A stretch of DNA of 64,000 nt, taken from NCBI RefSeq assembly GCF_947179165.1, contig NC_077245.1, positions 39,301,286-39,365,285 on the forward strand, written 5' to 3'. The DNA is from Solanum dulcamara (Eukaryota > Streptophyta > Magnoliopsida > Solanales > Solanaceae). Under the pieces are notes generated by a model, which saw only the letters and a program-made list of their open reading frames with translations, had not been told where the DNA came from and did not search any database. The position numbers were made by a program, and so were the translations under genes. Below are positions 22,561-52,306 of the stretch, one piece after another; position 1 is the stretch's first letter; every line of letters starts with the position of its first letter.

Positions 22561-23068
22561 CACATCCTATGCTACCTCGGGTCTATCAACAAAAGAAGGT
22601 GAAACTGATGTTGTAGAATTTACATAATGCTGAGTTAATAAAAGAGTGCCAGTCTCACAACTAGAATCTCTAAGCCTCAAGATAGATAGGTGAGGAGACT
22701 GATATACGAGAGATGAAACTAGGGAGATGGAGTAAAAGAAGATGATAATCTTTGGGTTAGAGGATAAACCTTTATGGGTAGCTGGTAGGTCTGGTCATAT
22801 CAAGTAAATCTGATCTATGAAGAGGAAAAAGCATTGTGTGGTCAAAGAAACTAACTATGGTAAACCAAAGGATCCATAGTCCTAAAAGGCACAACATGAA
22901 TATGTGTAGGACTAGTTGGGAGGCGTTACATATCTGACGCCGAAGAAATATGTTCTGGGATATCCTCAAGATCAACAGGTCTCCTATACTTCTTCTTTTT
23001 ACTCCTACTAGAATGGCTAACCCCAAGATGAACTCTAGATCTATCACCATCATCAGATGACATCTATA

Positions 23069-23676
23069 TGTAAAGTAAAAATACAATATATAAAAAACAT
23101 AAATTAAATAAATTTAGTGTTAGCCAAATAAATTAACATACATACTAGTTATAATCTACCACTCTATTCCTCCTTGTTTTATTTTTATCATCCTTCCATT
23201 CCTCCTCCTCAAATGATTCATATTTCTCATTTACTTCTGCCTCAACATTTGGCGTTATAAGCTCATCAAGCTCATCATCAAAAACCTCTTCTAGTATGTG
23301 TTGAAGATGTTCTAGTGTGGTTTCTAACTCAATATGAACTTGTTGTTGAGCAAGTGCAACATCATTTTGGTACGACGCATCTAATACATTCTCAGTTTTA
23401 ATTTTTTCCACAGGCTTTGTCTTAATAATAACCCACCAATTAGCCTTATCTCTATGCAATGAATATGGAGCGTAATAGACTTGCTTAGCATTTTGGACAA
23501 TGATAAAAGAATCATAACTTTCGTATTATCTGTTGTGCTTAACTTCAATTACATTATGTTGGTGGTGCACCCTTGGGCCTCTATGTGATGGGTCAAACCA
23601 TTTACACCAAAAAAAATACTACTTTTTAGGCCAACCTGAATATGTTTCTTCAATAATCTCTTGAATGACACCTTTA
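23069..23676 (-). pseudogene. CACTA TNP2-type DUF4216 segment, copy 1 of a tandem duplication
   Basis: The minus strand reads EETYSGWP, WFDPSHRG, VIEVKH, DSFI..QNAKQVYYAPY and WWVIIKTKP, the typical DUF4216 order found C-terminal in plant CACTA transposases. An acidic tail follows, rich in E and D (residues about 55-95 of the frame 23145-23459). The frame 23145-23459 is open for 104 codons, but the upstream part is broken by a stop. A near-copy lies directly to the right, offset 608 bp. Confidence 0.7.
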
Positions 23677-24283
23677 TGTAAAGTAATAATACAATATATA
23701 AAAAAAAAATTAAATAAATTTAGTGTTAGCCAAATAAATTCACATGCATACTAGTTATAATCTACCACTCTATTCCTCCTTGCTTGTTTCATTTTCATCA
23801 TCCTCCCATTTCTCCTCCTCAAATGATTTATATACCTCAGTTACTTCTACCTCAACATTTGGCGTTATAATCTCATAAAGCTCATCATCAAAAACTTCTT
23901 CTAGTATGTGTTGAAGATGTTCTAGTGTGGTTTCTAACTCAACATCAACTTGTTGTTGAGCAAATGCAATATCATTTTGGTAGGCCGCATCTAATACATT
24001 CTAAATTTCAATTCTTTTCAAAGGCTTTGTCTTAATAACAACCCACCAATTAGACTTATCTCTATGCACTATATATGGAGCATAATAGACTTGCTTAGCA
24101 TTTTGGGCAATGATAAAAGAATCGTAACTTTCGCCTTGTCTGATATGCTTAACTTCAATTACATTATTTTGTCGGTGCACCCTTGTGCCTTTATGTGATG
24201 GGTCAAATCACTTACACCAAAATAATACTACTTTTTTAGGCCAACCTGAATATGTTTCTTCAATAATCTCTTGAATGACACCC
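23677..24283 (-). pseudogene. CACTA DUF4216 segment, copy 2 of the tandem duplication
   Basis: The segment repeats 23069-23676 nearly base for base, from TGTAAAGTAA at its left to TTGAATGACACC at its right. Substitutions and extra stops separate it from copy 1. The head-to-tail arrangement with no spacer shows a local tandem duplication after the element inserted or during its decay. Copy 2 keeps the junction to the upstream domain at 24330-24860. Confidence 0.7.
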
Positions 24284-24931: not shown

Positions 24932-25395
24932 AAAGTTCACAACCTAAGCTCAAATTATAATTAAGTTCACAACCTAATTAATTCAAGTTATATTTAATTC
25001 AAGTTCTAATTAATTTAAGTTATAATTAATTTAAGTTATAATTAATTTAAGTTATAATTAATTTAAGTTCTAATTAATTCAAGTTCTAATTAATTCAAGT
25101 TCTAATTAATTCAAGTTCTAATTAATTTAAGTTCTAATTAAGTTCACAACCTAATTAATTTAATTTATAATTATGTTCATAACCTAATTAATGCAAGTTA
25201 TAATTAAGTTCACAAACTAATTAGTTCAAGTTATAATTAATTCAAGTTCTAATTAACTCAAGTTATAATTAAGTGCAAGTTCTAATTAATTCAAGTTATA
25301 ATTAAGTTCAAGTTCTAATTAATTCAAATTATAATTAACTTCTAGTTATAATTAAGTTCAAGTTCTAATTAATTCAAGTTGTAATTAAAAGTTCT
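24932..25395. repeat. AT-rich minisatellite, 15-16 bp unit
   Basis: Close to thirty imperfect units of AAGTTCTAATTAATTC and AAGTTATAATTAATTT follow one another. Neighbouring units share the same variant (runs of TTATAATT, then TTCTAATT), so local copying spread variants. Looser AAGTTC/TCTAA motifs continue to about 26150. Confidence 0.9.
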
Positions 25396-26640
25396 AATTC
25401 ATGACATTCAAGACGAATGTTTCTAAGTTAAAGTATAAAATTCCAAATTTCAAGTATATACAAATTAAAGTTCTAAAATCCAAATATTCAAGTAATTAAA
25501 GTTCAAGTTCATGACAACATAAAGTTCTAATTAATTAGTTCTAAAGTCTAAGTTCAATGACTTCAAAAATCCTAAAATTCAAGTTCAAATTTTCTAAGTT
25601 CTAAGCTCATGACATTCATTTATCCTAAAATTCAAGTATCTAAGTTATCCTAATTAGTTCGAAAGTCTAAAGAGTTCAAAATATATACAAACTTAAAATT
25701 TTCAAAGTTCAACTTCAAAAATCCTAAAGTTCAACTTCATGACTTTAAATATCTAACTTTAATTATCTTAATTAGTTCATAAGGACCACAATTCAACAAG
25801 ATTTCTACACTTAATAAAAATGCAAGTTTAAGTTCTAAATTCATGTTCTAAGTTCAAAGATCAAGTTCTAAATTCAAGTATTTCCTAAAATTCAAGTATC
25901 TAAGTTATTCTAATTAGTTCTAAAGTCTAAAGAGTTCAAAACTTATACAAACCTAAAAAAATTCTAAGCTCAACTTCAGATATCCTAAAGTTCAGATTAA
26001 TGACTTTGAATAGCTTCTAAACATCAAAAAACATACAATCCAATATTTTTTTAAGTTCAACTTCCAAACATCCTATATTCAAGTATTTCTATGTTTAAAA
26101 ATTCAAGATTTCTAACTTCTAATTACTTCATACTTCTAGCTTTTAACTTCAAAATTAAAGCACTTCAATTCCAACTAAAATGATATCCAATTCACAATCT
26201 AATTCAAAAAAAAAACCAATTCAAACTAAAGAGCTAAAATCTTCATTTACCAATTCACAATAAAATATATAAACTAACTATGTTAATAACATTCTAACTT
26301 CAAGAATACTTCAATTCCAACTAGAACAATATTCAATTCAAAAAATTTCTATTCAAACTAAAGACCTAAAATCTATAATCACTAATTCACAATTACACAT
26401 ACACACTAAATATGTTAATAAAATTCTAACTTCAAAAATACTTCAATTCCAACTCTAAAATACTTAATTCATAATCTAATTCAAAAAACCCCAATTTAAA
26501 GTAAAGACCTAAAATTAAAACTATAATTTCATTCTCTAATTCATAATCAAATATACAAATTAACTATTTTAATAGCATAAATTTAACAAACTAAATGAAA
26601 TAAACTAACTAATAAATCAAAATATTCTTAAATTATCCAA
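25396..26640. other. AT-rich interior of the CACTA element
   Basis: The strand is low in G, with many irregular TTCAAGTTCTAA-type motifs that look like decayed extensions of the minisatellite. No gene is seen. Confidence 0.5.
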
Positions 26641-29223: not shown

Positions 29224-31342
29224 TGTCACAGCTCGAACTAGGGACAAGCCGCGACATGGTGATCGGGATACGAGGGAACCCAACCATAAGACATCTTAGC
29301 ATACATCGCATACATATGGTAAAGAAAATGAAAAGATAAGGTGAAGTAATCATCAAGTGGGAGCATGACAAAGGGAAATCAACTCAATAGACGTCCAAAC
29401 TGGACTACATCATAAGTCGTCTTATCATGCTTATAGTCTATTCTTTGATAAGGTCTTAGGATAATCTCCTAGATCACCCTAACAATAGAAGAAAGGTCAA
29501 AGTAATACAAATATGAATAAAAGCCATGTCTTCGATAGAATGAGGACTCACCAACTCCTTGAAAATCTAGAGAAATATGTAGCCATGAATAGGATGGTCG
29601 TGAGTGTCGTCCGTCCCTACATTATGAGACAATGTAGGAAAAATATATGTTAGTACGTTTGAATGTACTAAGTATTTGATGTATGCATGAACAATTAAAA
29701 GAACGTAATCAATATGTCATAAGATGCATGACCAATCATAATGAACATGAGTAAAACTTAAAAGCATTTTAAAACATATGAAACTTATGGTCAATGCCTA
29801 TCATACAACTTCAACTTTTAACTCATAACTTAACTTTAACTTGTGTGGGATAAGAACTTTAACAGATATGTAAGACCATGCGAACTATTACATCAAATCC
29901 GATGACTCCTGCATCCAGACAGGGGAGGCTACCTTTCCAAGGCATACTCCATAGATAACTTGTCTCAACTCAACTCAACTATGCTATATGTGGATCCACT
30001 AGCTTAGCCATGAAGGAAATTCTAGGCGGACAACATAGTTTAAGACTTTAAGTTGCTACTAGGATTCCCTAGGGTAACTAACTGCGTTATCGAACCGAAC
30101 CCCACCTAGACATTCTCTCGCTTCTTAGTCAATATCCCTATGGAAACTCGTAAAACATGATCATAACATAATAGAGAAAGATAGTAATTGCCTATCAATC
30201 CATCTTTAAAATATATAGGAATAGCTCATTAACTTAGTAATTCATAAGAATCTATATACTCAGTGTGAATTGTACTTATCACCATCTTTAATAACATCTT
30301 TGATCTTAACTTTGATCATCATAATAACTTCATCTTTCAAAATCATAATCTCAACTTTAACTCATAAAACTTTCATTGAAAATCATTTAACTCATAAGTA
30401 ACGCAGAAAATCATCTTTAACTCATAGCTTGAGAATAGATTTATGCATGGGCATTCATAATTCAGCTTAAAATCATGAAATTCATATGAAAACATACACA
30501 TAATGATCATTGATAACATCTAAAAATAGAATTTAATCAGCCCAATGCAATTCATCAAAATTAGGGTTTATAATCAATTGAAAATTTAATGAAAACTTGA
30601 GAAATCTTTGGGACTTCATGGATGAAAGGGCACATAAATCAATCCCCACATACCTTGCTTCAAATCACTAGGAATTGTAAAGAAACCTTGGAAGAAATCC
30701 AAAACCCTAGCTTGAATTTGGAGAGAACCCTTAAGAGACTTTAAGAGTTCTTTCCTTGGGAAATTTGGAAGAGTGAATTGAATAGGAAGGAAATTTGAAG
30801 AATTGAATATTTATAGACTTTGATCTTGTCCATAAAAATTCCTAAGTTCATTGAACTGAACTTTGTAACTGACACAATTACCCCTCATTAAACTTCGGAC
30901 TTTGACCTTACGGATCACCTTCTACGGGCCATCGAACCAATGATGAGTCTTCTAAATGAATTGTCTTGTAGGTCTGAGGAAAAGCCTAAAAAATTGAGTC
31001 TCTAAAGTTTGAGAACGGGTCATGTGTACGACCCGTCAAAGCTTCTACGGGTCATTCTTTGGGCTCGTCCTGCAGGTCTCAAAAACCTGCAATTGGAGAG
31101 TCTTTGAATTTTTGTCATGAGTCATTCTTACGACCCATAAAAACTTTGATGACTCATTCTGGCAAGTCGTAGAACCTCTCCTGAGGGCAATATCTTATTT
31201 TGCTCAAGGGGTCACTCTACAACTCACCCTTACGAGTCATAAGAAGCTCTGTGATCCATAGAGTGACTTGTAAACATGGGTAGGTTCAAAAATTTAAGAT
31301 CTTTCTCCTATGTTCCAACTCTCCTACTTCCGTGGTCTTACA
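29224..31342 (-). repeat. Element A 3' LTR (left)
   Basis: The 2119-bp LTR starts TGTCACAGCTCG and ends GGTCTTACA on the plus strand, so it begins TGTAAGACC on its own strand. It aligns with the right LTR up to about 30630, with frequent differences. GTCGTGAG/CATTATGAGACAATGT landmarks near 29600 are shared with 58500 and 5990. ACGACCCGT-like repeats lie at 30900-31250. B inserted at its outer base. Confidence 0.88.
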
Positions 31343-31696
31343 ATGTTACACCCCGCACTCTTGAGCTCGGAACGTCTTCTTAAGTTCCTTAGATACTATC
31401 ATGTGAGCCGGATAAGCTACGACACTATCAAACAACTCTAAGGAAAGAAGATTGTGATACCTCGCGAGAAGGGAGGTCGGAGATAGAGTCATAAGAATTC
31501 GGAAAGAGTTGGAGGCTAAGAAATGAGTCGTAGGACTCGATTTACCTACGTAAGACACTAAGTTAAGAGTCTTATACACTTAAGTTGTTTAAGGATATAC
31601 CAAGCTTACGTAGTGCGGATTACATGAGCTCTTAAAGTAAGACAAGATTACGAACCCGCGAGGAAGGAAAAAAGACGACGCGTGGCAGCCAATGGA

Positions 31697-31895
31697 GGAG
31701 CGACACGTGGCAGCACCTCAAGCAAGCAGGTGATGCACCTACTTAGGGTCAAGTAGGTGATGCAGCTGCTTGGGGGAGGTGGACCCCGCTGCCACGTGGC
31801 AGCCCCTAATTGGCAGCATGACACGGTGGCCCAATAGGGGCTGGACATGTGTCCCTCTTAGGGGCTGACACGTGTCACCACTTGGGACCACCTAT
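31697..31895 (+). promoter_or_regulatory. Element B LTR promoter with G-box palindromes
   Basis: ACACGTGG (31703) is followed by the 16-bp perfect palindrome GCTGCCACGTGGCAGC (31788-31803) and TGACACGTGTCA (31866-31877), all with CACGTG cores. CCTATATTAG, about 12 bases after the last, is the TATA candidate. The leader with AACCCTAAAGC follows. Between the first two boxes an inverted repeat CACCTACTT/AAGTAGGTG (31736-31759, 6-base loop) can form a hairpin. The arrangement recurs in C and D. The 3' LTR repeats it at 38819-39017. Confidence 0.6.
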
Positions 31896-33604
31896 ATTAG
31901 TTGATATGTATCCAAAATCTTCAGCTTGTTCATTAAAAATTTCCAGCAGCAACGTGAACAAAGAACCCTAAAGCTTAAGGAGAGAAACTTGCGACGGCTT
32001 TGGGAGAAAAATAGGTAAGTCCCGTTTTCGTTCCGTAAATTAATTAATTAGCGTATACTACGATGATATGGAAGTATTAGTAGTACAAAATTAGGATTTT
32101 ATGCAGCAAAAAACGAACAGCAAGCTGCCACAACGTTACAGCATGCTGAAAATATTTCCGAGGCGCGATTTTGGCGAGTTCTAGCCAATTTCGGGAAAGG
32201 TAAGTTCTTACCCTCTAATTTGAAGTTTATGATGTTAAATTATGGTGTATTACACACCTTAGGAGCTTCTGGAAGTTGGGTAAAAGGTTTGAAAAGTTCA
32301 GCGTTCGAAATTAACGAATTTAGAATCGCTATAGTTAAGTTGTTGTCGAAATAAAGTGTTGTACGTGTAGGGGCTGCTGCTGGTTGTGTTGTGGCGTGTT
32401 GCAGGGTCTAAAATTTATCTAAATGAGGTGTGGGATCTTCTGGTTGCAGCCACAGGCTTTGCAATTAAAGAATTCGCGAAAGAAAGATTAAAAACTCTAG
32501 TTTTGGTATCTTAGTTTCGAGTGAATTGTTGGGGGTTTATATTGTATAATTTTGGTCGTAATATGTATATGTATGGTCTGCTGGTTGCATTGTTGGTTGG
32601 CTGCAGGTTCTAAGTACATGGTTGGGAATTCGGATAGGGCACATTATAGGGGAGGTGCTGCCCAATTTTCGTTAACGCCTTAACAAACTAAACAACTAAT
32701 CGAGGAAACGACTAAGGGAATAGATTCCATTACCACTAGGGTGTAACCTAAGATGCTGGAAAATTAAGAAGAGTTGATATGCATATTACTCTCCTGTTTA
32801 ATAGGTTCAAAGGATGACGAGGCGAACAGGATAAAGAGAAGTCCATACAAGGTATGTGAAGCTTTCCTTTGGCGTGTTTTTGGAATAGATATGTAGAACT
32901 ATTCTTCTTTTCTTTTGGCATGTCTTAGATATAAGTTATGAATGATATGTATACGATATTTGGGATTTAATCCATTCGTAAAGCCCTGAGTATGAGTCGA
33001 GACTCTTGTTTACTTCTTGATATTAGAACTCCTATAATAGCTGAGTCATTTCCTTTTAGTCTTCTATGTGATGAAAATTAATATATGTAAAGCCTATTTC
33101 TTCTTTCCTTTGGAATGGCTTAACTTTAAGTGAAATGGTATATGATATAGGTTTAGAGGTAATTCCATTTATGAGCTCTGATTGTAACTCGTGACTTGTA
33201 GTCACTCCTGAACATCAAGAGTCTGAAAGTAGTCAAACTACTATTCTCGAGCCTGCTATATAATGAATAGTAAGTAGAGGTACTAGCTCCTCTATTTAGA
33301 GGCTCTGAAATGATAAATGCCGTTGATTGCATGAGTTGAGTCTTTGACTAGATAAATTGTGTTTCTGATTGCATAGACTATATTTCTGATTGCATGAATT
33401 ATGTGGCATTATTTTGATGCATGTTTGTGATCCCTGAAGCCCCAACTGATATAAGCCCTAATGACATCTAAAGGGATACCTCAGATAATTACTCCCCTAG
33501 TCTTCAGGTGACGGTTCACTTGACTGTTTCATCGAGTCTTAGATAATGACTTAGTTGCATATGGTTTCTCACTACTCTACTCGTGCATACTGTAACCCAT
33601 CCTT

Positions 33605-34138
33605 CCTCGAGTCCCACGATGGGCCGGGATATGTTATCGTGCACAGTGTTACTACTTCTTTCACCGCGTCCCGGGCCGGATGTGTATAGTTCCACGCACG
33701 AGGAGACGATGCCGTACGTGAGGTGTGATATATGTTATATGTTATGACGATACGATTATTCACCGAGTCCCGGGCCGGCTGTAATATGATAGTATATATG
33801 GTGAAATAAGGAAGGAACACCGAGTCCCTCCTTAGAGGGCCGGGTATATATGTATATTATGATGGTACGCTATAGACGTACACCACTCCATTCACCGAGT
33901 CCCTCACTAAAGGGCCGGATACTTTATGTAGGCATGCATATGAGATTAAAGCAATACATTGTGACCCTGAGCCCCGCAGTGAACCGGGTGTGATACGATG
34001 ATATACATGATAAGATGATACCGTATACGATGGTATGATACCGTATACGATGATATGATGAAATGAAATGCATTATGATATGATGATATGTGATTATGAA
34101 GAAGTGATTATAACACCGAGTTCACTAGAGGGCCGGGC
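33605..34138 (+). repeat. Hairpin repeat array, element B 5' LTR
   Basis: Irregularly spaced units of CCGAGTCCC(T)...(A)GGGCCGGGTAT occur at about 33608, 33665 (CGCGTCCCGGGCCGG), 33762, 33821, 33896, 33965 and 34115. Each has a CCCT..AGGG or CCCGGG self-complementary core, and GATAC/GATATGAT runs lie between. The 3' LTR has the same array at 40727-41261. Confidence 0.75.
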
Positions 34139-34797
34139 ACAGCATATGATGATGTGTATGATTTATGTGTCCTAAGGTGCAGGTACAGTAATTTATTTAG
34201 TTATTATACTTGTCCCCTGCATCCCTATTTCAGTTATGATCTCAGTTACGATGTGTTATGCTTTACATACTCAGTACATATATCGTACTGACCCCCTTTT
34301 TCTCGGGGGGCTGCGTTTCATGCCCGCAGGTACAGATGTTTATTCTGGAGATTCATCAGCATAGGAGTTCCTCTCAGCTGTGTCGGAAGTGCTTCACTGT
34401 TCTGGAGCCTAAATTTTGATGCTAGTCACTTAATGTATATATTTGTACATTCAGGGGTACGGCGGGGGCCTTGTTCCGCCATATGTTGTTGTTACTATTC
34501 TTAGAGGTCTGTAGACATATGTATATGTGGGTTGTTTGTGAGTTAGTTTCGATGTTGCCTATTCGATATGTTGTGAATGTTCTTGTTATAGCAGCCTTAT
34601 CGGTTCGCGTGCCCTTTCATGATATGATATGAATGGAAGAGGCTACAGGAACATGAAAAAGTTTTAACTCATTGGTTTTTTTTTTGTGAGTAGTATCACC
34701 TTGTTCATAGTTCAATATGACTACAACTAATAGGTAGGTATACGGGGGTCCAGATCGGACCCCAGTCGCGGCCTACGGGGTTGGGTCGTGACAGAAG

Positions 34798-34810
34798 TGG
34801 TATCAGAGCA
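34798..34810 (+). other. Element B primer binding site
   Basis: TGGTATCAGAGCA, four bases after the 5' LTR, is a perfect complement to the 3' end of plant initiator tRNA-Met as I recall it. Confidence 0.95.
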
Positions 34811-36886
34811 GTTCGTCCTTGGAATGTCTACAGACCGTATCTAGTAGAGTCTTGTTTATCGGTGTGTTGTGCACCACATCTATAGACAGGAGGCTACAGG
34901 ATATTTAGGATGTTACTTTCTTTCATATCTAAGATCGTGCGATAGAGCCGAGCTATAGGAAATGAAATTCCTCATACTAACCTACAATTTTAGCAGGAAG
35001 ACAACGCCGATAGAAGAAAGTAACTAACAATATTGGATGTTACGAAGCACGCAGGTAAGCAAAGGCACGAAAGCCCTATGTCAGGTAAGGTATTGAAATG
35101 CGATTGACAGATACAATTGAAAAGTGAAAGGAAAGGTAAACAGGAAAGTATAACAGGTGCAGCTCGAGTGGACATAACAGGTAAGTTCATTTTCATACTG
35201 TTAATTATGAGCGCCCTGTGCGGCTGCGATATGAGATGATATGACTATATATGTGTGCCCTGTGTGGCTGAGATGTTATACAATATGAATGTATATATGT
35301 GTGCCCTGTGAGGCATTGTTGGTATTTTCTGCGTGCAGGTGTTGAGATAGTAAGAAATACAGAGGAAACTCTGCCCAAATTTTCCTAGAAATAAGAGGAG
35401 AATGAGATACAGGGCTATAGTATGTCTTGAAAGGTTGTTCTCGTAACAATGATGAGATTTGACTAAATAAGTATGGCTGACCTCGAGAAATAAGTTAATT
35501 ACTGAGTTAATGGCAATAGAAACTAGGAGGACGATACTGGAATAGTAGAATATGTTAGAAAGGAACTATAAGCCAAAGAAAATGACTCAGAGAGGACTGA
35601 TAGATCGGGATAAAATGAGATAGTAAGGCATTGCCTAAATTGATACATAGGGATAAACTATGACAAGTAATAGTTGAAGGAAGTAACAGTATGGTTAAGA
35701 CAAGAGTAAGACAAGAGTACAAAGGGAAAAGAATTATGACGGATAGGAAGTGTTAATAGGATAGCTTGTGAGACATTAAGGACAAGACTAGCTAACAAGG
35801 GTAAGTAACCCATAGTAAGAATCGTGAAGAAAGTCAAGCGGTATTATACTATGGGTGTGAATGCGAACAAGGTACCAGGTGAAAATAACAAAAACCATTA
35901 TTAGAATAAGCAAAACTTAGTAAGGAATTAACTAGAAGGTATGATGTGGTCCATGTAAATGGAATGTAAAGATAGGTGTGGAACGGAAAAGCAAGCTATG
36001 GAACAAATAAGGAAGATTTATCAAGTTCCATAAGGAAAATTTCGAATAAAGGTTATATGATGACGAAAAGGATGGCTAGTGCAAGGAAATAAAGGGTAAT
36101 ATGGAATTCCTTACGCCCAACCAAAAATGGAAATGAGTTGAAGGAATAATATAGAAGTTCTAATAGAGGCACTCAAGATAGATGTGATTAATTAAGTATA
36201 AGTATCGAACAAAAAGAGACATAGACAGTTACGAACTGGAGGTATAGTACGATGAAAAAGTATTAAGACAAGGCCACTACTACCACGAAGTTGATGTGGT
36301 TTTAAGCAGGATTAGAAATGAGCCTTAGGCACAGGACAAAGGTGCAAGCTCAGGAGGCGTAAAGAAGTATGGTGTACACGTGACTCCACTCTAATAATTA
36401 GTGGTATCCACTGGAATAAAGTTAGTATAATGACGAAGCTCGAAACATGAGTCATTAAAGTATAAGTACACTTGAGTGGGGAATGTGCACCAATTATGAG
36501 CCCTCCCTAATTACTGATTGGGATGAATGGAATGTGGCTTTGAGTGCACTACTACATTACGGATACTACTCGAGTATCAATCATTAGATGAGATTCGATT
36601 CGAGATATTCCAAATATTACAGCACCCTATGATTGTGCTAGGGTTTCCTAGAAAGGCAACCTAACGTGGGGATGATTTAACAGAAGATGTAGATCTGGTG
36701 CAGCCCGTTAAATATGTTGGAATAGAATCATTCGCGTGTAAATAGCTGAAGATATACGAAGAATAACATAGGTACACCCTAAAGGGGGGAAGTGGACAAG
36801 ATAAGTACAAGCGTAACATAAAATTAACTGATGCTATCGCATGTAAATGGGGACGCTTAAACGTCAAACGAGACCCCATAAGTGAT

Positions 36887-36989
36887 GGACGTGATCATAC
36901 CCAAACTGATGCACCGGATTCCGTCAAAACCCCGAAGTTAAGCGTGCTCGAATGAGAGTAGCACTAGGATGGGTGACCCCCTGGGAAGT
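36887..36989 (+). pseudogene. 5S rRNA-like fragment inside element B
   Basis: A 103-nt segment aligns without gaps to the plant 5S rRNA consensus as I remember it, from the GATCATACC 5' region through ATGCACCGGAT, AGTTAAGCGTGC and ACTAGGATGGGTGACC to CTGGGAAGT. I count about 17 mismatches, most of them transitions. The first few bases fit, while the last 15 or so of the 120-nt gene are absent. Box A (AGTTAAGCGTGC) and the intermediate/C-box region (GTAGCACTAGGATGGGTGACC split by one change) look preserved, so RNA polymerase III factor binding is conceivable. The fragment lies on the element's sense strand. The matching parts of C and D lack it. Confidence 0.9.
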
Positions 36990-37639
36990 GAGAAAGAGAA
37001 CAAAACAAGTATGACAAAAAGAGATTATAAAGGCGTGTTGGTACAATGACACATATAGAACAGAGTAAGCCAAGAGCAGAAAAAGATTATGACTGAAATA
37101 CAATGCACCTCGTGAAAATGGCACAAGAATAGTTTGCAGCTTATGAATATTGGCATACTAAGAGCGAGGTCAAATGATTACTCGATAAAAGAAAGTCAGT
37201 AATAACAATGTGATTGCCATATTTAGAATCTATTCAGGAAAAGTGTAAGATGGTTCGAGGCAAAACTATTCAGATATAATCGGTATGAAGGACAAGAGCC
37301 ATAGTGGAACCTTGACCTCGACTAAAGGAGGTAAGCCACTAGTATAGCAATGGTAAGGAATTGTCTAGACTGCTCTATGTCCGTACACACGTTTATGTAA
37401 GGATTACAATATGACGTATGGTAAGAAAACTGGAGAAAAGATCTGAGTAAAAGAGAAAGATAGCATACCTAAGGTATTACAAGTTGGATTAAGAGGAGTT
37501 GTACAATAGCTTAAGTTAAAAGAAGCATCAGCAGTCTGATAGCCTATCTCAGGGAATGGAAACCCCAACTTAGAGGTGGGAAGCAGTTAATATGTATTAT
37601 AGTACGAGCTGACCTCGCATTCTAAGGAACTGGGAGTTC

Positions 37640-38415
37640 ATACGGGCTATGGTAGATGGGTTGACAGAATCAACTTGTTCCCCTCCAGTAAGGAAGGCAT
37701 ATTTAGCTGAGGGTTATATGAGATGACATAGTAGGGAAACGATAAGATTTCACGGAGTTCCCACATTTATTATCTCAGATAGGGAAGTTCAATTTACAGC
37801 TAACCGTTGGAAATCATTCCGGAAGGGATTGAGGAACACAAATGAATCTTAGTACAACATTTTTCCCTTCGATTAAGGGACAGGCCCGAATGTGATCCAC
37901 TAAATTATTGATAAAGTAAAGCTTATTCCAGGACAAGATATCGATTAGCAGCCTAGAGTCGGCAAGAAGGGGATACATTGGTCCTTCTTAAGTCATTTGT
38001 AAAGTAGGTAAGATTGCCTATGAGTTGGACCTACCGTCCGATTTGAAACAACACATTCAGTTTTCACAGATCAATGCTCCGTAAGAATGGGAACGACGCT
38101 CCCAAAATATTTCCCATGGAGGAGGTCCACGTAATAGGGAGTTATCCTACGAGGGGAAACCTATCTCCATTCGGGATCAGCAGATTAAACAGGTTGCGAA
38201 CTAAGGACATAGTTTCCATCAAGGTACTGTGGCGGAATAAGAATCGTGAAGACATAAACTGGGAGGTTGAAAAGGACATGAAACACAAGTGTCCGTACCT
38301 ATTCCCGACGTCTACGGATAGCCCTAGTCTTGGAACTCGTATATTAATTACTTGGATGAAAATGTATGTCATTCCAGTAGAAAGGCATCTCCCTATGATC
38401 CGTATAAAGTCTTAA
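37640..38415 (+). pseudogene. Element B integrase remnant
   Basis: Shifting frames give pieces of a Ty3/gypsy integrase: a VDGLTEST segment near 37650, a VPTFIISDRE..FTANRWKSFRKGL segment (second catalytic Asp context) at 37750-37830, then a C-terminal part open from 38074 with VLWRNKNREDINWEVEKDMK. The last motif matches the WRN..E.ATWE tails of A and C. Stops and frameshifts exclude function. This is the only protein-derived part of B. Confidence 0.75.
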
Positions 38416-38452
38416 GGAAGGTTTTATTCAACATTCGGGGACGAATGTTCTG

Positions 38453-38465
38453 AAGGGGGGAAGGA
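38453..38465 (+). other. Element B polypurine tract
   Basis: AAGGGGGGAAGGA lies directly before the 3' LTR, preceded by ATTCGGGGACGAATGTTCTG, the block conserved in A, C and D. Confidence 0.93.
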
Positions 38466-41400
38466 TGTTACACCCCGCACTCTTGAGCTCGGAACGTCTT
38501 CTTAAGTTCCTTAGATACTATCATGTGAGCCGGATAAGCTACGACACTATCAAACAACTCTAAGGAAAGAAGATTGTGATACCTCGCGAGAAGGGAGGTC
38601 GGAGATAGAGTCATAAGAATTCGGAAAGAGTTGGAGGCTAAGAAATGAGTCGTAGGACTCGATTTACCTACGTAAGACACTAAGTTAAGAGTCTTATACA
38701 CTTAAGTTGTTTAAGGATATACCAAGCTTACGTAGTGCGGATTACATGAGCTCTTAAAGTAAGACAAGATTACGAACCCGCGAGGAAGGAAAAAAGACGA
38801 CGCGTGGCAGCCAATGGAGGAGCGACACGTGGCAGCACCTCAAGCAAGCAGGTGATGCACCTACTTAGGGTCAAGTAGGTGATGCAGCTGCTTGGGGGAG
38901 GTGGACCCCGCTGCCACGTGGCAGCCCCTAATTGGCAGCATGACACGGTGGCCCAATAGGGGCTGGACATGTGTCCCTCTTAGGGGCTGACACGTGTCAC
39001 CACTTGGGACCACCTATATTAGTTGATATGTATCCAAAATCTTCAGCTTGTTCATTAAAAATTTCCAGCAGCAACGTGAACAAAGAACCCTAAAGCTTAA
39101 GGAGAGAAACTTGCGACGGCTTTGGGAGAAAAATAGGTAAGTCCCGTTTTCGTTCCGTAAATTAATTAATTAGCGTATACTACGATGATATGGAAGTATT
39201 AGTAGTACAAAATTAGGATTTTATGCAGCAAAAAACGAACAGCAAGCTGCCACAACGTTACAGCATGCTGAAAATATTTCCGAGGCGCGATTTTGGCGAG
39301 TTCTAGCCAATTTCGGGAAAGGTAAGTCCTTACCCTCTAATTTGAAGTTTATGATGTTAAATTATGGTGTATTACACACCTTAGGAGCTTCTGGAAGTTG
39401 GGTAAAAGGTTTGAAAAGTTCAGCGTTCGAAATTAACGAATTTAGAATCGCTATAGTTAAGTTGTTGTCGAAATAAAGTGTTGTACGTGTAGGGGCTGCT
39501 GCTGGTTGTGTTGTGGCGTGTTGCAGGGTCTAAAATTTATCTAAATGAGGTGTGGGAGCTTCTGGTTGCAGCCACAGGCTTTGCAATTAAAGAATTCGCG
39601 AAAGAAAGATTAAAAACTCTAGTTTTGGTATCTTAGTTTCGAGTGAATTGTTGGGGGTTTATATTGTATAATTTTGGTCGTAATATGTATATGTATGGTC
39701 TGCTGGTTGCATTGTTGGTTGGCTGCAGGTTCTAAGTACATGGTTGGGAATTCGGATAGGGCACATTATAGGGGAGGTGCTGCCCAATTTTCGTTAACGC
39801 CTTAACAAACTAAACAACTAATCGAGGAAACGACTAAGGGAATAGATTCCATTACCACTAGGGTGTAACCTAAGATGCTGGAAAATTAAGAAGAGTTGAT
39901 ATGCATATTACTCTCCTGTTTAATAGGTTCAAAGGATGACGAGGCGAACAGGATAAAGAGAAGTCCATACAAGGTATGTGAAGCTTTCCTTTGGCGTGTT
40001 TTTGGAATAGATATGTAGAACTATTCTTCTTTTCTTTTGGCATGTCTTAGATATAAGTTATGAATGATATGTATACGATATTTGGGATTTAATCCATTCG
40101 TAAAGCCCTGAGTATGAGTCGAGACTCTTGTTTACTTCTTGATATTAGAACTCCTATAATAGCTGAGTCATTTCCTTTTAGTCTTCTATGTGATGAAAAT
40201 TAATATATGTAAAGCCTATTTCTTCTTTCCTTTGGAATGGCTTAACTTTAAGTGAAATGGTATATGATATAGGTTTAGAGGTAATTCCATTTATGAGCTC
40301 TGATTGTAACTCGTGACTTGTAGTCACTCCTGAACATCAAGAGTCTGAAAGTAGTCAAACTACTATTCTCGAGCCTGCTATATAATGAATAGTAAGTAGA
40401 GGTACTAGCTCCTCTATTTAGAGGCTCTGAAATGATAAATGCCGTTGATTGCATGAGTTGAGTCTTTGACTAGATAAATTGTGTTTCTGATTGCATAGAC
40501 TATATTTCTGATTGCATGAATTATGTGGCATTATTTTGATGCATGTTTGTGATCCCTGAAGCCCCAACTGATATAAGCCCTAATGACATCTAAAGGGATA
40601 CCTCAGATAATTACTCCCCCAGTCTTCAGGTGACGGTTCACTTGACTGTTTCATCGAGTCTTAGATAATGACTTAGTTGCATATGGTTTCTCACTACTCT
40701 ACTCGTGCATACTGTAACCCATCCTTCCTCGAGTCCCACGATGGGCCGGGATATGTTATCGTGCACAGTGTTACTACTTCTTTCACCGCGTCCCGGGCCG
40801 GATGTGTATAGTTCCACGCACGAGGAGACGATGCCGTACGTGAGGTGTGATATATGTTATATGTTATGATGATACGATTATTCACCGAGTCCCGGGCCGG
40901 CTGTAATATGATAGTATATATGGTGAAATAAGGAAGGAACACCGAGTCCCTCCTTAGAGGGCCGGGTATATATGTATATTATGATGGTACGCTATAGACG
41001 TACACCACTCCATTCACCGAGTCCCTCACTAAAGGGCCGGATACTTTATGTAGGCATGCATATGAGATTAAAGCAATACATTGTGACCCTGAGCCCCGCA
41101 GTGAACCGGGTGTGATACGATGATATACATGATAAGATGATACCGTATACGATGGTATGATACCGTATACGATGATATGATGAAATGAAATGCATTATGA
41201 TATGATGATATGTGATTATGAAGAAGTGATTATAACACCGAGTTCACTAGAGGGCCGGGCACAGCATATGATGATGTGTATGATTTATGTGTCCTAAGGT
41301 GCAGGTACAGTAATTTATTTAGTTATTATACTTGTCCCCTGCATCCCTATTTCAGTTATGATCTCAGTTACGATGTGTTATGCTTTACATACTCAGTACA

Positions 41401-41916
41401 TATATCGTACTGACCCCCTTTTTCTCGGGGGGCTGCGTTTCATGCCCGCAGGTACAAATGTTTATTCTGGAGATTCATCAGCATAGGAGTTCCTCTCAGC
41501 TGTGTCGGAAGTGCTTCACTGTTCTGGAGCCTAAATTTTGATGCTAGTCACTTAATGTATATATTTGTACATTCAGGGGTACGGCGGGGGCCTTGTTCCG
41601 CCATATGTTGTTGTTACTATTCTTAGAGGTCTGTAGACATATGTATATGTGGGTTGTTTGTGAGTTAGTTTCGATGTTGCCTATTTGATATGTTGTGAAT
41701 GTTCTTGTTATAGCAGCCTTATCGGTTCGCGTGCCCTTTCATGATATGATATGAATGGAAGAGGCTACAGGAACATGAAAAAGTTTTAACTCATTGGTTT
41801 TTTTTTTTGTGAGTAGTATCACCTTGTTCATAGTTCAATATGACTACAACTAATAGGTAGGTATACGGGGGTCCAGATCGGACCCCAGTCGCGGCCTACG
41901 GGGTTGGGTCGTGACA
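38466..41916 (+). repeat. Element B 3' LTR
   Basis: This is a near-identical copy of 31344-34793, offset 7122 bp (7123 after the T-run indel). It ends GGGTCGTGACA, followed by the TACAA duplication. Confidence 0.97.
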
Positions 41917-41922
41917 TACAAT

Positions 41923-43584: not shown

Positions 43585-46500
43585 TGTCACAACTCAACCT
43601 CATAGGACATGACTAGTGCCTGAGTTAGGAACTCGTGTACATATCTATTAGACATCATCAAACTGAAACCAAACACAATATGGAGGCTTTGTAAAAATAA
43701 GATGTCATCTCAAGCATTACATACATGTATCAGGGTAACCTATCTCCTGAGGAATCAAAATCAATTAAAACCTCATAATAAATGAGCCGAAAAGGCTGTC
43801 ACTACATACAACACCCCATAATATAAGTCATATATGCATAACCAAACACATTATATACACACAACCCACATATATGTCTATAGACGTCTAAGCATATCAA
43901 CAGTATCATATGGAGGGATAGGGCCCAGTTGTACCCCCTAATTAAACATATATATACATCAAAAAGAAGTCTATAAAAAAATTCAATGCTCCAAGATAAA
44001 GGAGCACTCCAACATAGCTGAATAGGAATACTAGGCTAGCGGATCAACAAAGCTAGTACTTGTACCTACGGGAATAAAATGTAGCCCCCCGAGGAAAGGG
44101 GTCAGTACAAAATATGTACTGAGTATGTAAAACATGAAATATAATAGGAAAGATCATAACTAAAGTAGAGAGCCCATGATAATCAAGAGCTCACTGTACC
44201 TATGACTTACGAAGCAAATCATGCATATCATTATCATATATCGTACCCGGCCATTATGGGACACAGTGTCATAATCATATCATCAAATTATCATATCATT
44301 ATATATATAATATACCATACCCGACCTTCTAATAAGGGACTCAGTGAATTAAGTCGTGTACACATATACCTAACCCGCCCCATCATGGGACTCGGTTCCA
44401 TAACCATATCATTGCATCAACATATGATCATATAGTGCACCCGACCCTCTAGTAAGGGACTCAGTGGAGATGTAATAAAGTTGTGCACGATAATATACCT
44501 GGCCTGGGACTCAGTGAAAGAGGTAATAAAAGTATGCACGAGTAGAATATCATGAGAAACCATATGCGATTAGCTCATCGCCTATGACTCAATAGAATAA
44601 TCAAAATGAACCATTATTTGAAAATCAAGAGAGTAGTCATCTCAAGTACCTTTTGAATGTCACTATGGACCATATCAAATGGAGCCTCAGAAATCATTGA
44701 CATGTATCAAGATAATACAAACCAGCTTATGGAATTAGAGATATTTGTCATCGTAGTCTTTATGAATAGAAGCTTAAACATACAACTATTATTCAACATA
44801 TAGAAGGCTCGAGGCAGTAGCTCAACTACTTTAAGCGTTTTACCATCCAGAAGTGAATAAGGATCATGAATCATGTTCAAAACTTATTATTTGAAATACC
44901 CCAAAGCTTATATCATTAATCACTTACGTCAAAGTCATGCCCAAAGAAAGAAGGAATAGGTTTTACATACCTTCAGTGCTTATTCGCAACACAACACGCA
45001 TACACTTCCCAACAATGTCTCAACCTATCTTAAGACGTCAAAAACTATGGTTATGCTACATGAAGGTTTCAAAACGCACTCCAACGTTAGCAGCTCATTT
45101 CTAGAAAATTAAGTGACATTTCCCTTATATTCAAACAAACTACATAACAACCAAGTCAACATCAACAACCACACGTTCAAGTGCTATATTAAAGTTATCC
45201 AAGTCAAGATTCAAGAATGTTCCAAAATAGTCCGCACACTATTCCAAATCAGCCCACACATTATGACATTCCATAATATTTAACATAACGACTACGACGT
45301 AATCAAGTTACTCTTAATAATCTACAGCCACAACACTTTATCGGATGACCTTACAACAGTCCAATAATTACAACAACACTATAGCTTTAACTACTCTTAG
45401 TCCTTCAATTCAACAAGAACAACAACACAATCAACCCAGATCGTTCTCAATACAATACAATTATAACTTTAAATATCAAATTACTTCACTTTCATCATAT
45501 AACCAATCGCAACAACAACTCCAACATTAATCGCAATTAATCTATCATATTTATATTAGAACAGCCCCAACAGTTAAAACCATACAATGTATAATCGTAA
45601 CCATATTTAATTGTTTAATTTAACACAAACAGTCACATAATACAATTATAACTCCAACTTAAAATATCAAATTCTTCCATTTTCATTATATAACTCATGA
45701 CAACAACAACCAAAACGTTAATTAAAATTGATTCACCGTTTCCAAATGAAATAGCCCCTACATGGATTTCACAACATTCCAACTCCAACATACATAATTT
45801 CATACATCCTATTCACATTTACACATTCACAACACTTCTAAATTCATCCTAAAATGTATAGAAAATAATTAATTCTTACCTTAACAACTTGGCTTCTCAA
45901 CTTGGTTGAAACGTGTGGATTGTACCTTAGGTCTTCTTTCTTCCCCAATGGTTAAGTAACATTTTTAATCACCTCCAATTGGTTGAAAATACCTTATAAA
46001 AATAGTGTGGGGATCAAAATTTGGGAGCTTGCTTTCTCATCCATGGTCGTGAGTTGTCATGGCTTGAACTCTCTTTTTTTACTCTATATGTTACTCAAAG
46101 AAGAATGAGCTAAAATGAGCTCTTAGCCATTAATTTTTCATTATATATACATCCCCTAAGAGTGACACATGTCTAGCCTTGACGTGTGTTCCATGGTCAT
46201 CCATGGAAGCCCCTAAAAGTGACACGTGTACAGCTTTGACATGTGTCCATTAGGGACATGTATCCTACTATCATCCACCCTTCAATCACATTCTTCCATG
46301 TGTCTTGGTGGGCCCTACTTAGCATTCTAATTAACTTAATTAATCTTAGTTTATCCCTAATCCCCACTTAATAATCTAGAACAAATAAAATCTATAATCA
46401 ATTGTGTATTAATTAAAATTGGGAATAAAAATCTCTATCTCGCATCCCAGAATAATCTTATCCATTACTTTAAGAAAGTAGGTGCATCACCTCCTTAATT

Positions 46501-46966
46501 CCTGCCACAAGTTCATAAGTAGTTGTATCACCTACTTGCCTTTTTTTAATTTAAATGCAGTCCACACATTCTATGTAGGTGCATCACCTACTTGAAGTAG
46601 ATGCATCACCTACTTATTCTTTTTAGTAGGTTAGCAATTAGTCTTACCTTAAGAACCTGTGTGATCCGTACTACTTAAGCTAGACGTGTAATCACGTAGC
46701 CTAATTATGTAAGACATCCAAACCAGTAGCTTAAGCAAGTAGGTCGATTACTATTATAAATTATTTGTCCTCAAACTCCTTTTAAATCCTTCCAAACCTA
46801 TTTCAAACCATCACTATTTCACATAGAACTAGTCTATGCAAGATATGGGGCATTGCATTCTCCCCTCCTTATGATGATTTGATAACTTCATGGATCATAT
46901 AGATCATATGGACGATTTAGAGAAGCTTAAAAATGTTCTAATGTAAAAAAAATATGGGATATAACA
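43585..46966 (-). repeat. Element C 3' LTR (left)
   Basis: The plus strand starts TGTCACAACTC and ends GGGATATAACA. It is collinear with the right LTR, including the hairpin array near 44244-44513 (CCCGACC..TAAGGGACTCAGTG units), the donor-like site (AGGTAAGAATTAATT on the minus strand, near 45886), the TATA/G-box region near 46140-46240, and the CACCTACTT repeats near 46580-46615. Confidence 0.93.
44244..44513 (-). repeat. Hairpin repeat array, element C 3' LTR
   Basis: On the plus strand the units read TACCCGGCC..TATGGGACACAG, ACCCGACC..AAGGGACTCAGTG and similar. They are the reverse complement of the B and D units, about five copies. The right LTR has the same at 52213-52510, there with a TA microsatellite (52271-52302) between units. 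Confidence 0.7.
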
Positions 46967-46981
46967 TCCTTTCCCCCTTTA
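46967..46981 (-). other. Element C polypurine tract
   Basis: The minus strand reads AAAGGGGGAAAGGA just before the 3' LTR start (TGTTATATCCC), with GAGGACGAATGTTCT upstream. Confidence 0.88.
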
Positions 46982-47119
46982 GAACATTCGTCCTCAAATA
47001 TTAACTAGCCTCATAAGGTTTTACAAGGATTCCGGGAAGTCTTTGTAATAGTTGTCACATATAGCCTTCTTATTAATTGATATAACCAATTTAGGGGTTT
47101 AGAGTACCCGTGGGTATAG

Positions 47120-48200
47120 GGAATAAGTAAGGATAATTATTCTTCATCTCCTTTTCGGCTTCCCAGGTCATTTCTTCTCTATTCTTGTTTCGCCACAATA
47201 CTTTAATGAAGGTCAATCCATGGTACATAACCTTCTGACTTAGCGATCAAGTGTAGCTATAAGTTTTTCCTCATAATACAACCCCTCTATCACTTGGACG
47301 TCATCCACGGGCAATATTTTAGAAGGATCACCAATATATTTGCAAAGCGTCGATATATGAAAGACAGGGTGCACTGCTTCCAAATCAAATGGTAGATCTA
47401 ACTTATAGGCAACCTTGCCCACCCTACGAACAATCTGATAAGGCACAATATACCTCAGGCTAAGTTTCCCTTTATTGCCTAACTTCATTACACCCTTCAT
47501 CGGTGACACCTTCAAGAACACCCAATCCCCAACTTCAAATTCTAAGTGTCGACGTCGATTATATTCGTATGACTTTTGTCAACTCTGGGCCGCTAATAGT
47601 CTCTTTTGAATAAGTTTCACTTTATTCACAGCTTGCTGAATCATGTCTGGGCCTATTAGTTTAGTCTTATCAACCTCAAATCAACCAGTAGGTGACCTGC
47701 ATTTCCTGCCATACAAAGCTTCATACGGTGTCATCTGGATGCAAGAATAATAGCTATTATTGTAGGCAAACTCGATAAGTGGCAAATGATCATCCCAGCT
47801 ACCCTTGAAATTAATAACACAGGCCCGTAACATATCTTGTAGTGTCTGAATAGTATGCTCGGCCAATTCGTCAGTCTGAGGGAGAAATATTGTGTTGAGA
47901 CTCACTTGTTTCCCCAATCCTTCTTGGAAGGGTCTCTAGAAGTTAGCTTTAAACTGGGCTCCTCTGTCTGAGATAATAGATATAGGAACCCATGAAGTCT
48001 TACTATCTCCTTGATATATAACCTCGCATAGTGCTCAGCTGCATATGTAGTTCTAATTGGAAGAAAATATGTTGATTTTGTCAACCTATCTACAATAACC
48101 CATATAGAATCATACTTTCGTGGTGCGCGAGGTAAGCCTGTAATGAAGTCCATATTCTAGAATCTTCAGCCTCATGTATTACCTTTCGATTTCTTTAAAG
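47120..48200 (-). pseudogene. Element C integrase, broken by frameshifts
   Basis: The minus strand gives, in order, MDFITGLPRAPRKYDSIWVI with the first Asp in VIVDRLTKS (47902-48153), a second-Asp segment readable only after a frameshift (IISDRGAQF near 47965), an A-E-H-T-I-Q segment keeping the catalytic Glu (47681-47917), then an SH3-like/C-terminal part with VHPVFHISTL and a WRN-type tail (47120-47521). DDE residues can all be found, but two or more frameshifts and stops break the protein. It is the best-kept coding part of the B/C/D family. RNase H and RT are absent upstream. Confidence 0.85.
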
Positions 48201-51200
48201 AACTTTAATTATCACTCTACCTTTTAGCTCTTAATCCCAATCCTTAGGGTTGGCTATCAAGTAACGCTGGAGTTCACCCATATAATAACTTTACATAGCT
48301 GCTCTGTGCTCTATCTATCATTAATTGGTATAATTCTAAAAGAATTTAACATATAAGTTCACTATTTTTTAGTAACCAGCTAGTTCTAATCATCTTGCTT
48401 AAACCATTTTATAATTCCCGTTACCCAACTTGTAACACTCTAGACACATTATCTCGTGGCGTTTCTTTATCTTTAATTCTGACTCTTCTATTGCCACTTT
48501 ACTCAAATTTTGCTCTAATGTTTTTGTCACACGTTATATTGCAATCTTTACAAGAATATGAGAAGGTGCTCAACTTAGCCCAAGAAATGTCTTAGCGTCC
48601 TCTCGCTAGTCTTCATGTTTTACCTTTCTTTCTTCTCTCTTATCTTACAATCGGTATCAGGATAGATCTTTGGTCAAACCATGGCCATGTTCTATTTTCC
48701 CTTAGTACTAATTGTATCTTGGTAATTTGGATTAACCCATCTTTGCATCTCTCTGTAACATACCCAAAATATCATAACTGCATTGTCATTATTGAACCCT
48801 TAATCCTCTTATCATGTACTCACTCACTTGGTCTTATTCTTAACATACAAACATTCATAGGTTGCATAACCCTTCTGACTTCTATTTATTTATTGCTGGC
48901 TTTCAAATCTTACTAACTTGTTTCAGCAATGGATCTTATTTGAAATTTAAGCATCCATATCAAATATATTGTAGTGTCAATTGTTTCCATCTTGCACTTG
49001 CATTTCTCGTACCCACTTCTCCCCTTAAGGGTGTACTTATACCATTATCCGTTTATACTTTGCTCTATGTCCCAATTTCCAATCTCAAATTCATCTAATA
49101 TTTTTTTCCAATCCACTTGGTACTGTACTATATCCATATCTTTCTTTATAATTTATAACTTGATTATCCACGTACGAAACCTTGACTAAATCACGAAGCG
49201 AAGAGACTCTTGCCATATATAGCACAAAATTTGATCTGATAATTTGTACTCGAGTAATGCGACCAATGTAACAACTCATCCAAGGTCCATTCCACTCATT
49301 CCCATCAATAGTTAATTAGTACGTGTAGTCGTTCCAATCTCACTTAGGCAACACTTATATTCCACGATAAGTATCCAAAGTTCTCTTGAAATAGTATCTT
49401 TATCCCAACCTATATCATTTGTTTCTTTTGATGAATTTATATTGCACCATTTGATCCTCAAGTCTACAATCTTTGTCCCTTAAGGATTTCACTATTTTCA
49501 AGGTGAAGTCGTGTGCATGCCAAGTTCACCTCAATAATGGTCTTACCTTATAACCACGTAGTCGTACTATACCTTTAAGTTCATAACTATATCTTCCCCT
49601 TTCGTTCCATACTCATATTCAATTAATTACATCTATCTTGGGTGCTTCCATTAGAATTTCCTTATTATTTCTCCCGTCTATGTCTATCTTTTATTTTGCA
49701 CACGAGGAATCTTATGCTACCTCTATATCATTCAGAATATATTACTTTCGCATAATCTTTTTTCTCATTTCCAAAACACATTCTGTTCATCCATCTTTAT
49801 TCGTATCATACCATTCATTTTCTAAAACCCATTATACCTCATTGCTCATCTTTCTTCAATTTGGTCATTCACAGTTTTGTCACCTTTAGCATTCGTATCC
49901 TCGGCTACACAAGTCATGACTTATTGCTACACTGTTATCTCTCTTTCTTCTTTTTTCCTCCTTTCAGTTACTCTTTCTTTCCTTGTGCTCTCTATCATTT
50001 CTGTTATCATATAACCTTTATTCGAAACTTTCCCTATAGAACTTTATAAGCCTTCCTTATTTGTTCTATAGCTCTCTTTTCCGTTTCACACTTACCTTTA
50101 TATTCTAGTCACACGGACCACGTCTTATCTTTTGCCACTTTCTCACTAGGATTTACTTATTTCCATAACAATCCTCATTATATTCACATTATATCCTGTT
50201 CGTATTCAATCCCATAGTATAATACTTCTTAACCTTTTTCACGATTCTTACTATGGGTTAATTACACTCGGTGAAGTAAGTGTACTTAACCTTTTACCCT
50301 TCCTAGTAAGTCTTATCCTTCATATCTCACAAGCTGTCTTATTAATACATTCATATCCGTCATAATTCTTTTTCCCCTGTACTCTTATCTTAATCACACT
50401 ATTACTTCTTTTAACTATAGCTCGTCATAATTTATCCCTACTTATCAATTCACCTTAATATAACACTGTATCAAGATTTTCCAGCCTTTTCTAAATAATC
50501 TCTTAGTATTACAAATCCTTTCCCAATTCCTTTTTACCCTATCGATATTGACTTAATATAACCATTTAATCAGTAGTTAACTTATTTCTCGAGGTCATCC
50601 ATACTCGCAGCTTATTCAAATCTTATCATTATTGTAGGAATGACCTTTCATGACATATTACAAACCTATATCTCATTCTCTTTTTATTTCTAGGAAAATT
50701 TTAGCTGACTTTCCTCTATCTTTCTTACTATCTCAAAACCTGCACGCAGGAAATACCAACAGCATCTCACAGGGCCGATATACATATATATATATATATC
50801 ATAGCTACACAGGGCTCCCTATATCAACAAAGGTATGAAAATGATGAACTTACCTCGTATATTCAAATCAAACTGCACCTATTACATTTTCCTATTTACT
50901 TCCCTTTCTATCTTCAACCTTACATTTCAATCGTACTTTAATACCTTACCCGACATATATCTTTCATACCGTTGCTTACCTGCATACTTTGTAACTTCAT
51001 TCATTATCAATCACTTTTTTCTATCGGTGTCATTTTTCTGCTGCAATCAAAGGTTAGTATAAGAAATCTAATTTCATATGACTCGGCTCTATCGCACAAT
51101 CTAAGATATGAAAGGGGAGAGTCGCTCTAATTTGTGCTTTCTTAGTCGACTTGTACCGGGAGGAGTCCTCCTATTGGTTTATTGCTTTCTAGCTTCTAGA

Positions 51201-51545
51201 TAGTCCTTTTTTGTATTTGGGGATGAGTCAGCTGACCTTAGTAGGTTAGGTGACTTATGAAACAACCTAGGAGTGGAGGTAAGGTTTATGTCCCCCTCCT
51301 TTTATTTTTCTATTTGTTATTTATGATAAGGCTTGGGGGTGACACTCAACCCCTGACTATGCACGAGAGCTGGGAGCCTCGTGTAGGGTCTATTCCCATA
51401 AAAAAAAGAAAAAAAAAGAAAGATAACATCCTAAATATCCTGTAGCCTCCTCTTTATAGATGTGGTGCACTTCACATCGATAAAGGAGACTCTACTAGAC
51501 ACGGTCTGTAGACACTCCGAGGATAAACTATTTTGATATCACTTT
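48200..51545 (-). other. Element C non-coding interior
   Basis: On the minus strand this is purine-rich and collinear with the interiors of D and B: leader near 51470-51530 (GTCTACAGACC on the minus strand), the ATAAAGTTCTATAGGG block near 50040, and the CGAAACCTTGACTAAATCACG region near 49180, which matches D near 13720. Several plus-strand (antisense) frames, 49638-49889, 49861-50049 and 50835-51062, resemble antisense frames of D and B. No gag or RT motif is seen. The 5S-like fragment of B is missing here. Confidence 0.7.
51530..51542 (-). other. Element C primer binding site, degenerate
   Basis: On the minus strand GTGATATCAAAAT follows four bases after the 5' LTR. It is a decayed form of TGGTATCAGAGC, at the same spacing as in B and D. 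Confidence 0.65.

Positions 51546-52267: not shown

Positions 52268-52306
<39 letters not shown>

Follow-up and report, generated by a model that had tools for sequence, protein, structure and literature searches.

Introduction

The described elements closest to the one reported here belong to Cassandra, a non-coding plant LTR element that also carries 5S-derived sequence (PMC7215508, PMC10853983, PMC12786077). Cassandra elements measure 565–860 bp and have the 5S sequence in the LTR as their hallmark and promoter (PMC10886601). Ajax, a nemertean terminal-repeat retrotransposon in miniature (TRIM) of 421–434 bp, is a further non-autonomous LTR element with a partial 5S sequence in its LTR and 5-bp target-site duplications (TSDs) (PMC10886601). 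The 5S-bearing LTR elements described in these sources are miniature and hold the 5S sequence in the LTR (PMC10886601, PMC10853983, PMC7215508, PMC12786077).

Three other kinds of system are relevant. LARDs are large, have LTRs and a protein-less core and are assumed to be moved in trans (PMC7215508). LTR elements can capture genes by abnormal template switching, the foreign sequence being joined in and multiplied along with the element; the main text of the review concerned never mentions rRNA or noncoding RNA (PMC13317346). The chromoviruses Beon1 and TRRT are gypsy elements tied to rRNA sequence in that they sit inside 18S genes (PMC3605345). 5S rDNA and Tekay/Del elements have also been counted in Capsicum, as two matters not linked to each other in the source as available (PMC7076952).

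Here we describe element B, located in a 64,000-nucleotide stretch of Solanum dulcamara DNA (the window), with a fragment of host 5S rRNA sequence in its interior. Unlike Cassandra, the B family has a single interior 5S sequence that is cut at nt 103, a 10.6 kb element, 3.45 kb LTRs and no clear constraint on the 5S part. Two hallmarks of Cassandra, a 5S sequence in the LTR and miniature size, are absent from B, in which the sole Rfam match is interior and the length is 10,573 bp. In contrast to Ajax, B is a large plant element; in contrast to LARDs, it has a host 5S fragment inside it and part of its interior is a decayed relative of another element, C. In B the sequence taken up is that of a structural RNA made by Pol III and, the reverse of the situation in Beon1 and TRRT, the rRNA piece sits inside the element. 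No report of an interior 5S sequence in a large gypsy element was found in the open literature, represented mostly by titles and the openings of abstracts, and an earlier record may exist.

Structure of element B

Element B spans 31344–41916 and has the following parts.

31339–31343, no strand: 5′ TSD of element B, TACAA, read directly and the same as 41917–41921
31344–34793, + strand: 5′ LTR of element B, 3450 bp, TG...CA, 99.8% identical to the 3′ LTR
34798–34809, + strand: primer-binding site TGGTATCAGAGC, in the sequence directly after the 5′ LTR
34794–38465, + strand: interior of element B, with no Pfam match in the four ORF pieces scanned (ORF list and Pfam scan)
37589–37868, + strand: remnant 69% similar in DNA to a part of C with an integrase-like translation (window self-comparison; integrase label assigned by eye)
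38452–38465, + strand: polypurine tract GAAGGGGGGAAGGA, directly before the 3′ LTR
38466–41916, + strand: 3′ LTR of element B, 3451 bp
41917–41921, no strand: 3′ TSD of element B, TACAA

The two LTRs differ by six mismatches and one gap over 3451 columns. The primer-binding site is presumably of the initiator-Met tRNA type. The features of a LARD (LTRs, primer-binding site, polypurine tract, TSD and a large interior) are all present. Element B appears from its sequence to be non-coding: the longest plus-strand ORF in the interior is 122 amino acids long and the four pieces scanned gave no Pfam domain match, coding capacity having been scanned in B alone, with family matches to its interior mostly 91–97% identical. 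B is classed as putatively gypsy-affiliated because its interior is related at the DNA level to C, one piece of which has a Tf2-1-like SH3 domain; for this Ty3/gypsy affiliation we take Tekay/Del to be the chromovirus clade name. The preliminary description had located the 5S-like sequence inside a large gypsy-type LARD rather than in an LTR. An interior 5S-derived module in a large gypsy-affiliated element that is apparently non-coding is supported; the module is the sole Rfam match in B.

The 5S-derived module

The module and its surroundings are as follows.

36878–36886, + strand: left boundary zone; C-family homology reaches GACCCC just before it, and the commonest form in the family is ATAAGGGAT (alignments and junction tally, 59 copies)
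36887–36989, + strand: 5S module, corresponding to host 5S rRNA nt 1–103 in sense orientation, gap-free with 16 mismatches (RF00001 match and host comparison)
36990–37189, + strand: right flank, beginning GAGAAAGAGAACAAAACAAG; not 5S, the host gene continuing CCTCGTG

The genome's own 5S arrays (341 bp repeat, contig C7 of a 942 Mb assembly in 32 contigs) were used as the reference. Positions 36887–36989 are identical to nt 1–103 of the host 5S gene at 87 of 103 sites (84.5%) without gaps; the similarity, previously put at about 83% over 103 gap-free bases, is therefore real. Transitions account for 14 of the 16 mismatches. An Rfam scan, which the preliminary description had suggested as a check, gave a significant RF00001 match at 36895–36996 on the + strand (45.1 bits, E = 3.8e-06; gathering score 38). 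This is the sole match at gathering scores in the 64 kb window, and no other Rfam family was matched in element B at E values up to 0.5. A chance match is ruled out by the RF00001 score, the gap-free alignment to the host gene and the 538 genomic pattern matches given below.

The module is not a 5S rRNA gene: full length, a closed helix I and a terminator are all lacking, the host sequence beyond nt 103 being missing together with its T-run. Its left edge coincides with 5S +1 to within three shared bases (GAT). In the host spacer TTTAATA starts 30 nt before the gene, GC pairs occupy −14 and −12, and position −1 is a T, which fits the Solanum upstream pattern (TTTAATA at −30, GC at −14/−12; PMC9043955). 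The 30 nt preceding the module match this spacer at 12 of 30 positions, against 84.5% identity inside the module. Co-capture of the upstream spacer was considered and is unsupported: the TGAT before the module looks spacer-like, and this match depends on a T private to B among 59 near-complete copies, the commonest form being GGGAT.

Copies in the genome

Pattern searches allowing up to three mismatches in 42 bases were run on one plant genome (942 Mb). A pattern within the module gave 295 + 243 = 538 matches and one just to the right of it gave 308 + 286 = 594, with none for the reversed-pattern control in either case; these matches are not equal to full-length elements. The module pattern leaves out true host 5S sequence, from which it differs at 5 of 42 bases. 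All 30 loci fetched by the module pattern (out of 538 matches, B included) match the interior of B around the module, some with internal deletions, which makes the module look like an ordinary component of the family. No free-standing module was present among these 30 of 538, nor were the free-standing 5S-headed copies with their own duplications that characterize 5S-derived SINEs (SINE3).

A second sample of 60 copies besides B was picked by flanking sequence instead of module sequence, 20 coming from the 40 joined-flank places scored and 40 from the listed exact matches to the right flank; it may include tandem duplicates (L124 and L125, 6.6 kb apart; L131 and L132, 7.1 kb apart). At least 95 of the 103 module nucleotides were found at the same site in 59 of the 61 copies, B included, the other two modules being truncated to 47 nt (L075) and 88 nt (L090). 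Apart from point changes the 59 copies have common junctions, GGGAT followed by GGA... on the left and GGGAAGT followed by GAGAAAG on the right. A query of the joined flanks with the module removed gave no match crossing the join by more than 15 bases among the 40 places scored, and a 35-base empty-site pattern gave no genomic match. The module had no match in viral contigs and the right flank none in prokaryote genome contigs. An Rfam scan of 20 of these copies besides B exceeded the RF00001 gathering score in 12; eight fell below it. An insertion confined to the window locus, which the preliminary description had named as a finding that would count against it, is ruled out by the 538 and 594 matches and the shared junctions.

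At 5S positions 18 and 22, about one-third of the 61 copies do not have the majority base. Three modules (L077, L088 and L089) form a subfamily that retains the host base at both positions and, on this pattern of bases, may be nearer to the sequence originally captured.

Modules occur in pairs with a spacing of about 7.1 kb at C8:28058137/28065255, C2:12437922/12445046, C3:52891212/52898353 and C4:54621028/54628186. This spacing equals one LTR plus one interior and so suggests LTR–interior–LTR–interior–LTR tandem arrays; for Cassandra, tandem LTR–interior–LTR arrays have been reported (PMC7215508).

Transposition and age

Eight further copies were assessed for TSDs. Perfect 5 bp duplications were found in seven and one with a single mismatch in the eighth, and the 5′ flanks of the eight were all different. 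Both LTR starts were fetched for ten copies, two of which lacked a usable pair and were dropped; the identities of the LTR pieces in the remaining eight pairs (396–1018 columns), which belong to the eight copies assessed for TSDs, were 99.35, 94.99, 94.50, 97.22, 94.65, 94.79, 98.97 and 96.46%. From the TSDs and LTR identities of 94.5–99.4% it follows that the module has been copied through many transpositions covering a range of ages. The earlier proposal that it had travelled with its element thus agrees with the pattern matches, the common junctions and the copies' own TSDs. At an assumed rate of 1.3e-8 per site per year, the insertion of B would date to about 0.07 million years ago.

Related elements in the window

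The window contains a relative of B in the opposite orientation.

43585–54889, − strand: relative C, with LTR-like repeats at 43585–46966 and 51546–54889 (86.6% identical) and an interior without the 5S module

Two pieces of C were scanned against Pfam; one gave the Tf2-1-like SH3 domain (E = 2e-23) and the other no match. The C family comprises five copies (the window copy and L069–L072), none with the module. No Rfam match was obtained in L069–L072 at E values up to 1, or above the gathering score in the window copy, so that the Rfam scan and the alignment bear out the earlier statement that C is without the module. In a multiple alignment of B with the five C copies, homology extends to 9 nt before the module and resumes farther downstream. 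The downstream homology is backed by BLAST in four of the five, L069 having no match, and the gaps are placed differently in the alignment of L071 with B. The near downstream flank alone scored 45 against C, under the shuffled maximum of 54.5, which leaves the right edge of the insertion unplaced. No closer module-free relative between B and C was found among the 40 places scored per genome DNA search.

Element A (8391–16811) has an LTR-like pair about 85–89% identical and is about 66% related to the LTR of B. Its interior seems to be deleted across the region that bears the 5S module in B, and is hence uninformative on the module. Direct repeats at 29234–30629 and 58117–59644 (86–87% identical; the right copy with a 126 bp internal duplication) bracket B and C and may be the LTRs of an older element that nested insertions have split. 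Local direct repeats at 23057–24282 and 24945–26578 (about 610 bp at 90%, several others at 72–82%) lie outside A, B and C.

Origin of the module

Positions 36887–36989 correspond to sense host 5S nt 1–103 at one interior site in 59 of 61 copies. We consider it fairly probable that they derive from 5S RNA by a single capture through reverse-transcriptase template switching and are now a passenger of the element. The reverse transcriptase, copying element RNA 3′ to 5′, would have switched at about nt 103 to a 5S RNA packaged along with it, followed this template as far as the 5′ end and then gone back to the element RNA; the resulting element would have founded the family, which a coding relative is predicted to move in trans. 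One described capture route is abnormal switching of templates among unrelated RNAs in the same package (PMC13317346). Capture from RNA is favoured by the left edge at 5S +1 together with the sense orientation. The 30 nt before the module are read as element sequence because of their homology to C, element homology coming within 9 nt of the left junction.

The same left edge bears on capture at the DNA level, in which break repair or gene conversion would have brought in a fragment of a 5S gene without an RNA intermediate. Such an event might have its limit at +1 by coincidence; for a break at a random point of the 341 bp repeat, the chance of lying within about 3 nt of +1 is only about 1% (4/341, our own estimate). 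The lack of clear spacer before the module (12 of 30 matches) is also against it, while the right end internal to the gene and the absence of an RNA-only mark at either junction are in its favour. On balance we regard this origin as improbable.

The main rival to template switching is insertion by a LINE of a processed 5S retropseudogene or 5S-headed SINE into an ancestor of the B family, followed by amplification. An RNA-derived insert of this kind would likewise begin at +1, the stretch following the module looks A-rich by eye, and 5S RNA seems to act as a LINE template in this genome, since three composite loci of a 5S-headed, tRNA-type SINE, with their own flanking repeats by eye, occur in it. 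On the other hand, the module stops at nt 103 inside the gene without a SINE body, no convincing flanking duplication or tail was seen by eye, and the 30 loci fetched from the 538 matches all lie in B-like interior, with none free-standing. We judge LINE insertion unlikely, although less so than DNA-level capture, and retain template switching as the preferred origin.

The described 5S-carrying LTR elements that were found keep the 5S sequence in the LTR, where a promoter role is possible. The B family offers a natural contrast, with the same host RNA at a place where a role in transcription is not needed, in hundreds of copies and under no clear constraint. This raises the question of whether 5S RNA is simply a frequent template of retrotransposon reverse transcriptase, the LTR placement in Cassandra being the case kept by selection.

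Promoter boxes and constraint

The coordinates of the A box, IE and C box were placed on the module as we take them to be from Arabidopsis work. In B the C box is identical to that of the host, whereas one mismatch is present in each of the A box and IE. The preliminary description, in which the promoter boxes were largely kept, holds for B to this extent; that the kept boxes matter is not upheld, the C box being identical to the host in 4 of 59 copies.

These data bear on a functional reading, in which selection would maintain the module as an active internal Pol III promoter comparable to that of Cassandra LTRs. The module has fixed differences from the host gene at 3 of 39 box sites versus 13 of 64 outside (Fisher p = 0.10), and the sites of the A box and IE are less variable (mean minor-variant fraction 0.035 and 0.027, all sites counted) than the upstream flank (0.049); weak past constraint is therefore possible. 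The C box has a value of 0.050, and the box sites together average 0.041 in 59 copies, against 0.049 upstream and 0.026 downstream; the downstream stretch adjoins the pattern by which copies were selected, and its conservation may be overstated. When CpG sites were left out, the means over 61 copies were 0.044 for the module, 0.041 upstream and 0.026 downstream, the flanks looking more conserved through the choice of copies with B-like flanks. Among 21 sequences the mean pairwise difference was 0.084 for the module, and four flank stretches gave 0.050, 0.079, 0.021 and 0.044. The higher CpG content of the module may raise its rate of change. An earlier conservation profile (module 0.043, flanks 0.036) was dropped in favour of flank-selected copies, because a pattern within the module had served to pick 29 of the 36 copies other than B.

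Other features also speak against a working promoter. The Solanum-type upstream motifs (TTTAATA at −30, GC at −14/−12; PMC9043955) are present in the host spacer and absent before the module, and the first run of at least four T residues lies 871 nt downstream. The 5S fold is eroded, with 17 of 26 consensus pairs versus 23 in the host, at least three of the nine failures lying beyond the module end, and the failure of eight of the 20 scanned copies to reach the RF00001 gathering score points the same way. A maintained Pol III promoter is unsupported because the module is at least as variable as the flanking sequence and has neither the upstream motifs nor the 3′ end of the 5S gene; we hold such a promoter to be very improbable, and the module is probably not a working promoter now.

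Equally doubtful is a bolder proposal, that a gypsy-type element packaged 5S RNA and spread more than 500 sense 5S promoters, of which young copies with an intact C box, such as B, would start internal Pol III transcripts. If this were true, the B family would be a large LTR retrotransposon read by two polymerases. 

There is also a practical caution. The modules of B and of the 12 of 20 further copies pass the Rfam 5S threshold without being 5S genes, and such modules are a potential source of error in 5S counts, FISH probes and small-RNA mapping.

5S-headed SINE loci

A suspected Cassandra copy at G000:C6:35274099 turned out to be a 5S–SINE composite. Three such composites were observed: L161 (G000:C6:35273100–35275200), L162 (C3:65437800–65439300) and L163 (C11:19948460–19949960). 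Host 5S sequence (from nt 4, 12 and 106, respectively) runs in them through the 3′ trailer CTCCTTTT into a tRNA-type, T-tailed SINE, which we take to be Au-like. The 33-base 5S/SINE junction is identical at the three loci, each of which has its own flanking direct repeat by eye. The composite may have arisen when Pol III transcribed past the end of a 5S gene into a neighbouring SINE, LINE-mediated copying and 5′ truncation then following.
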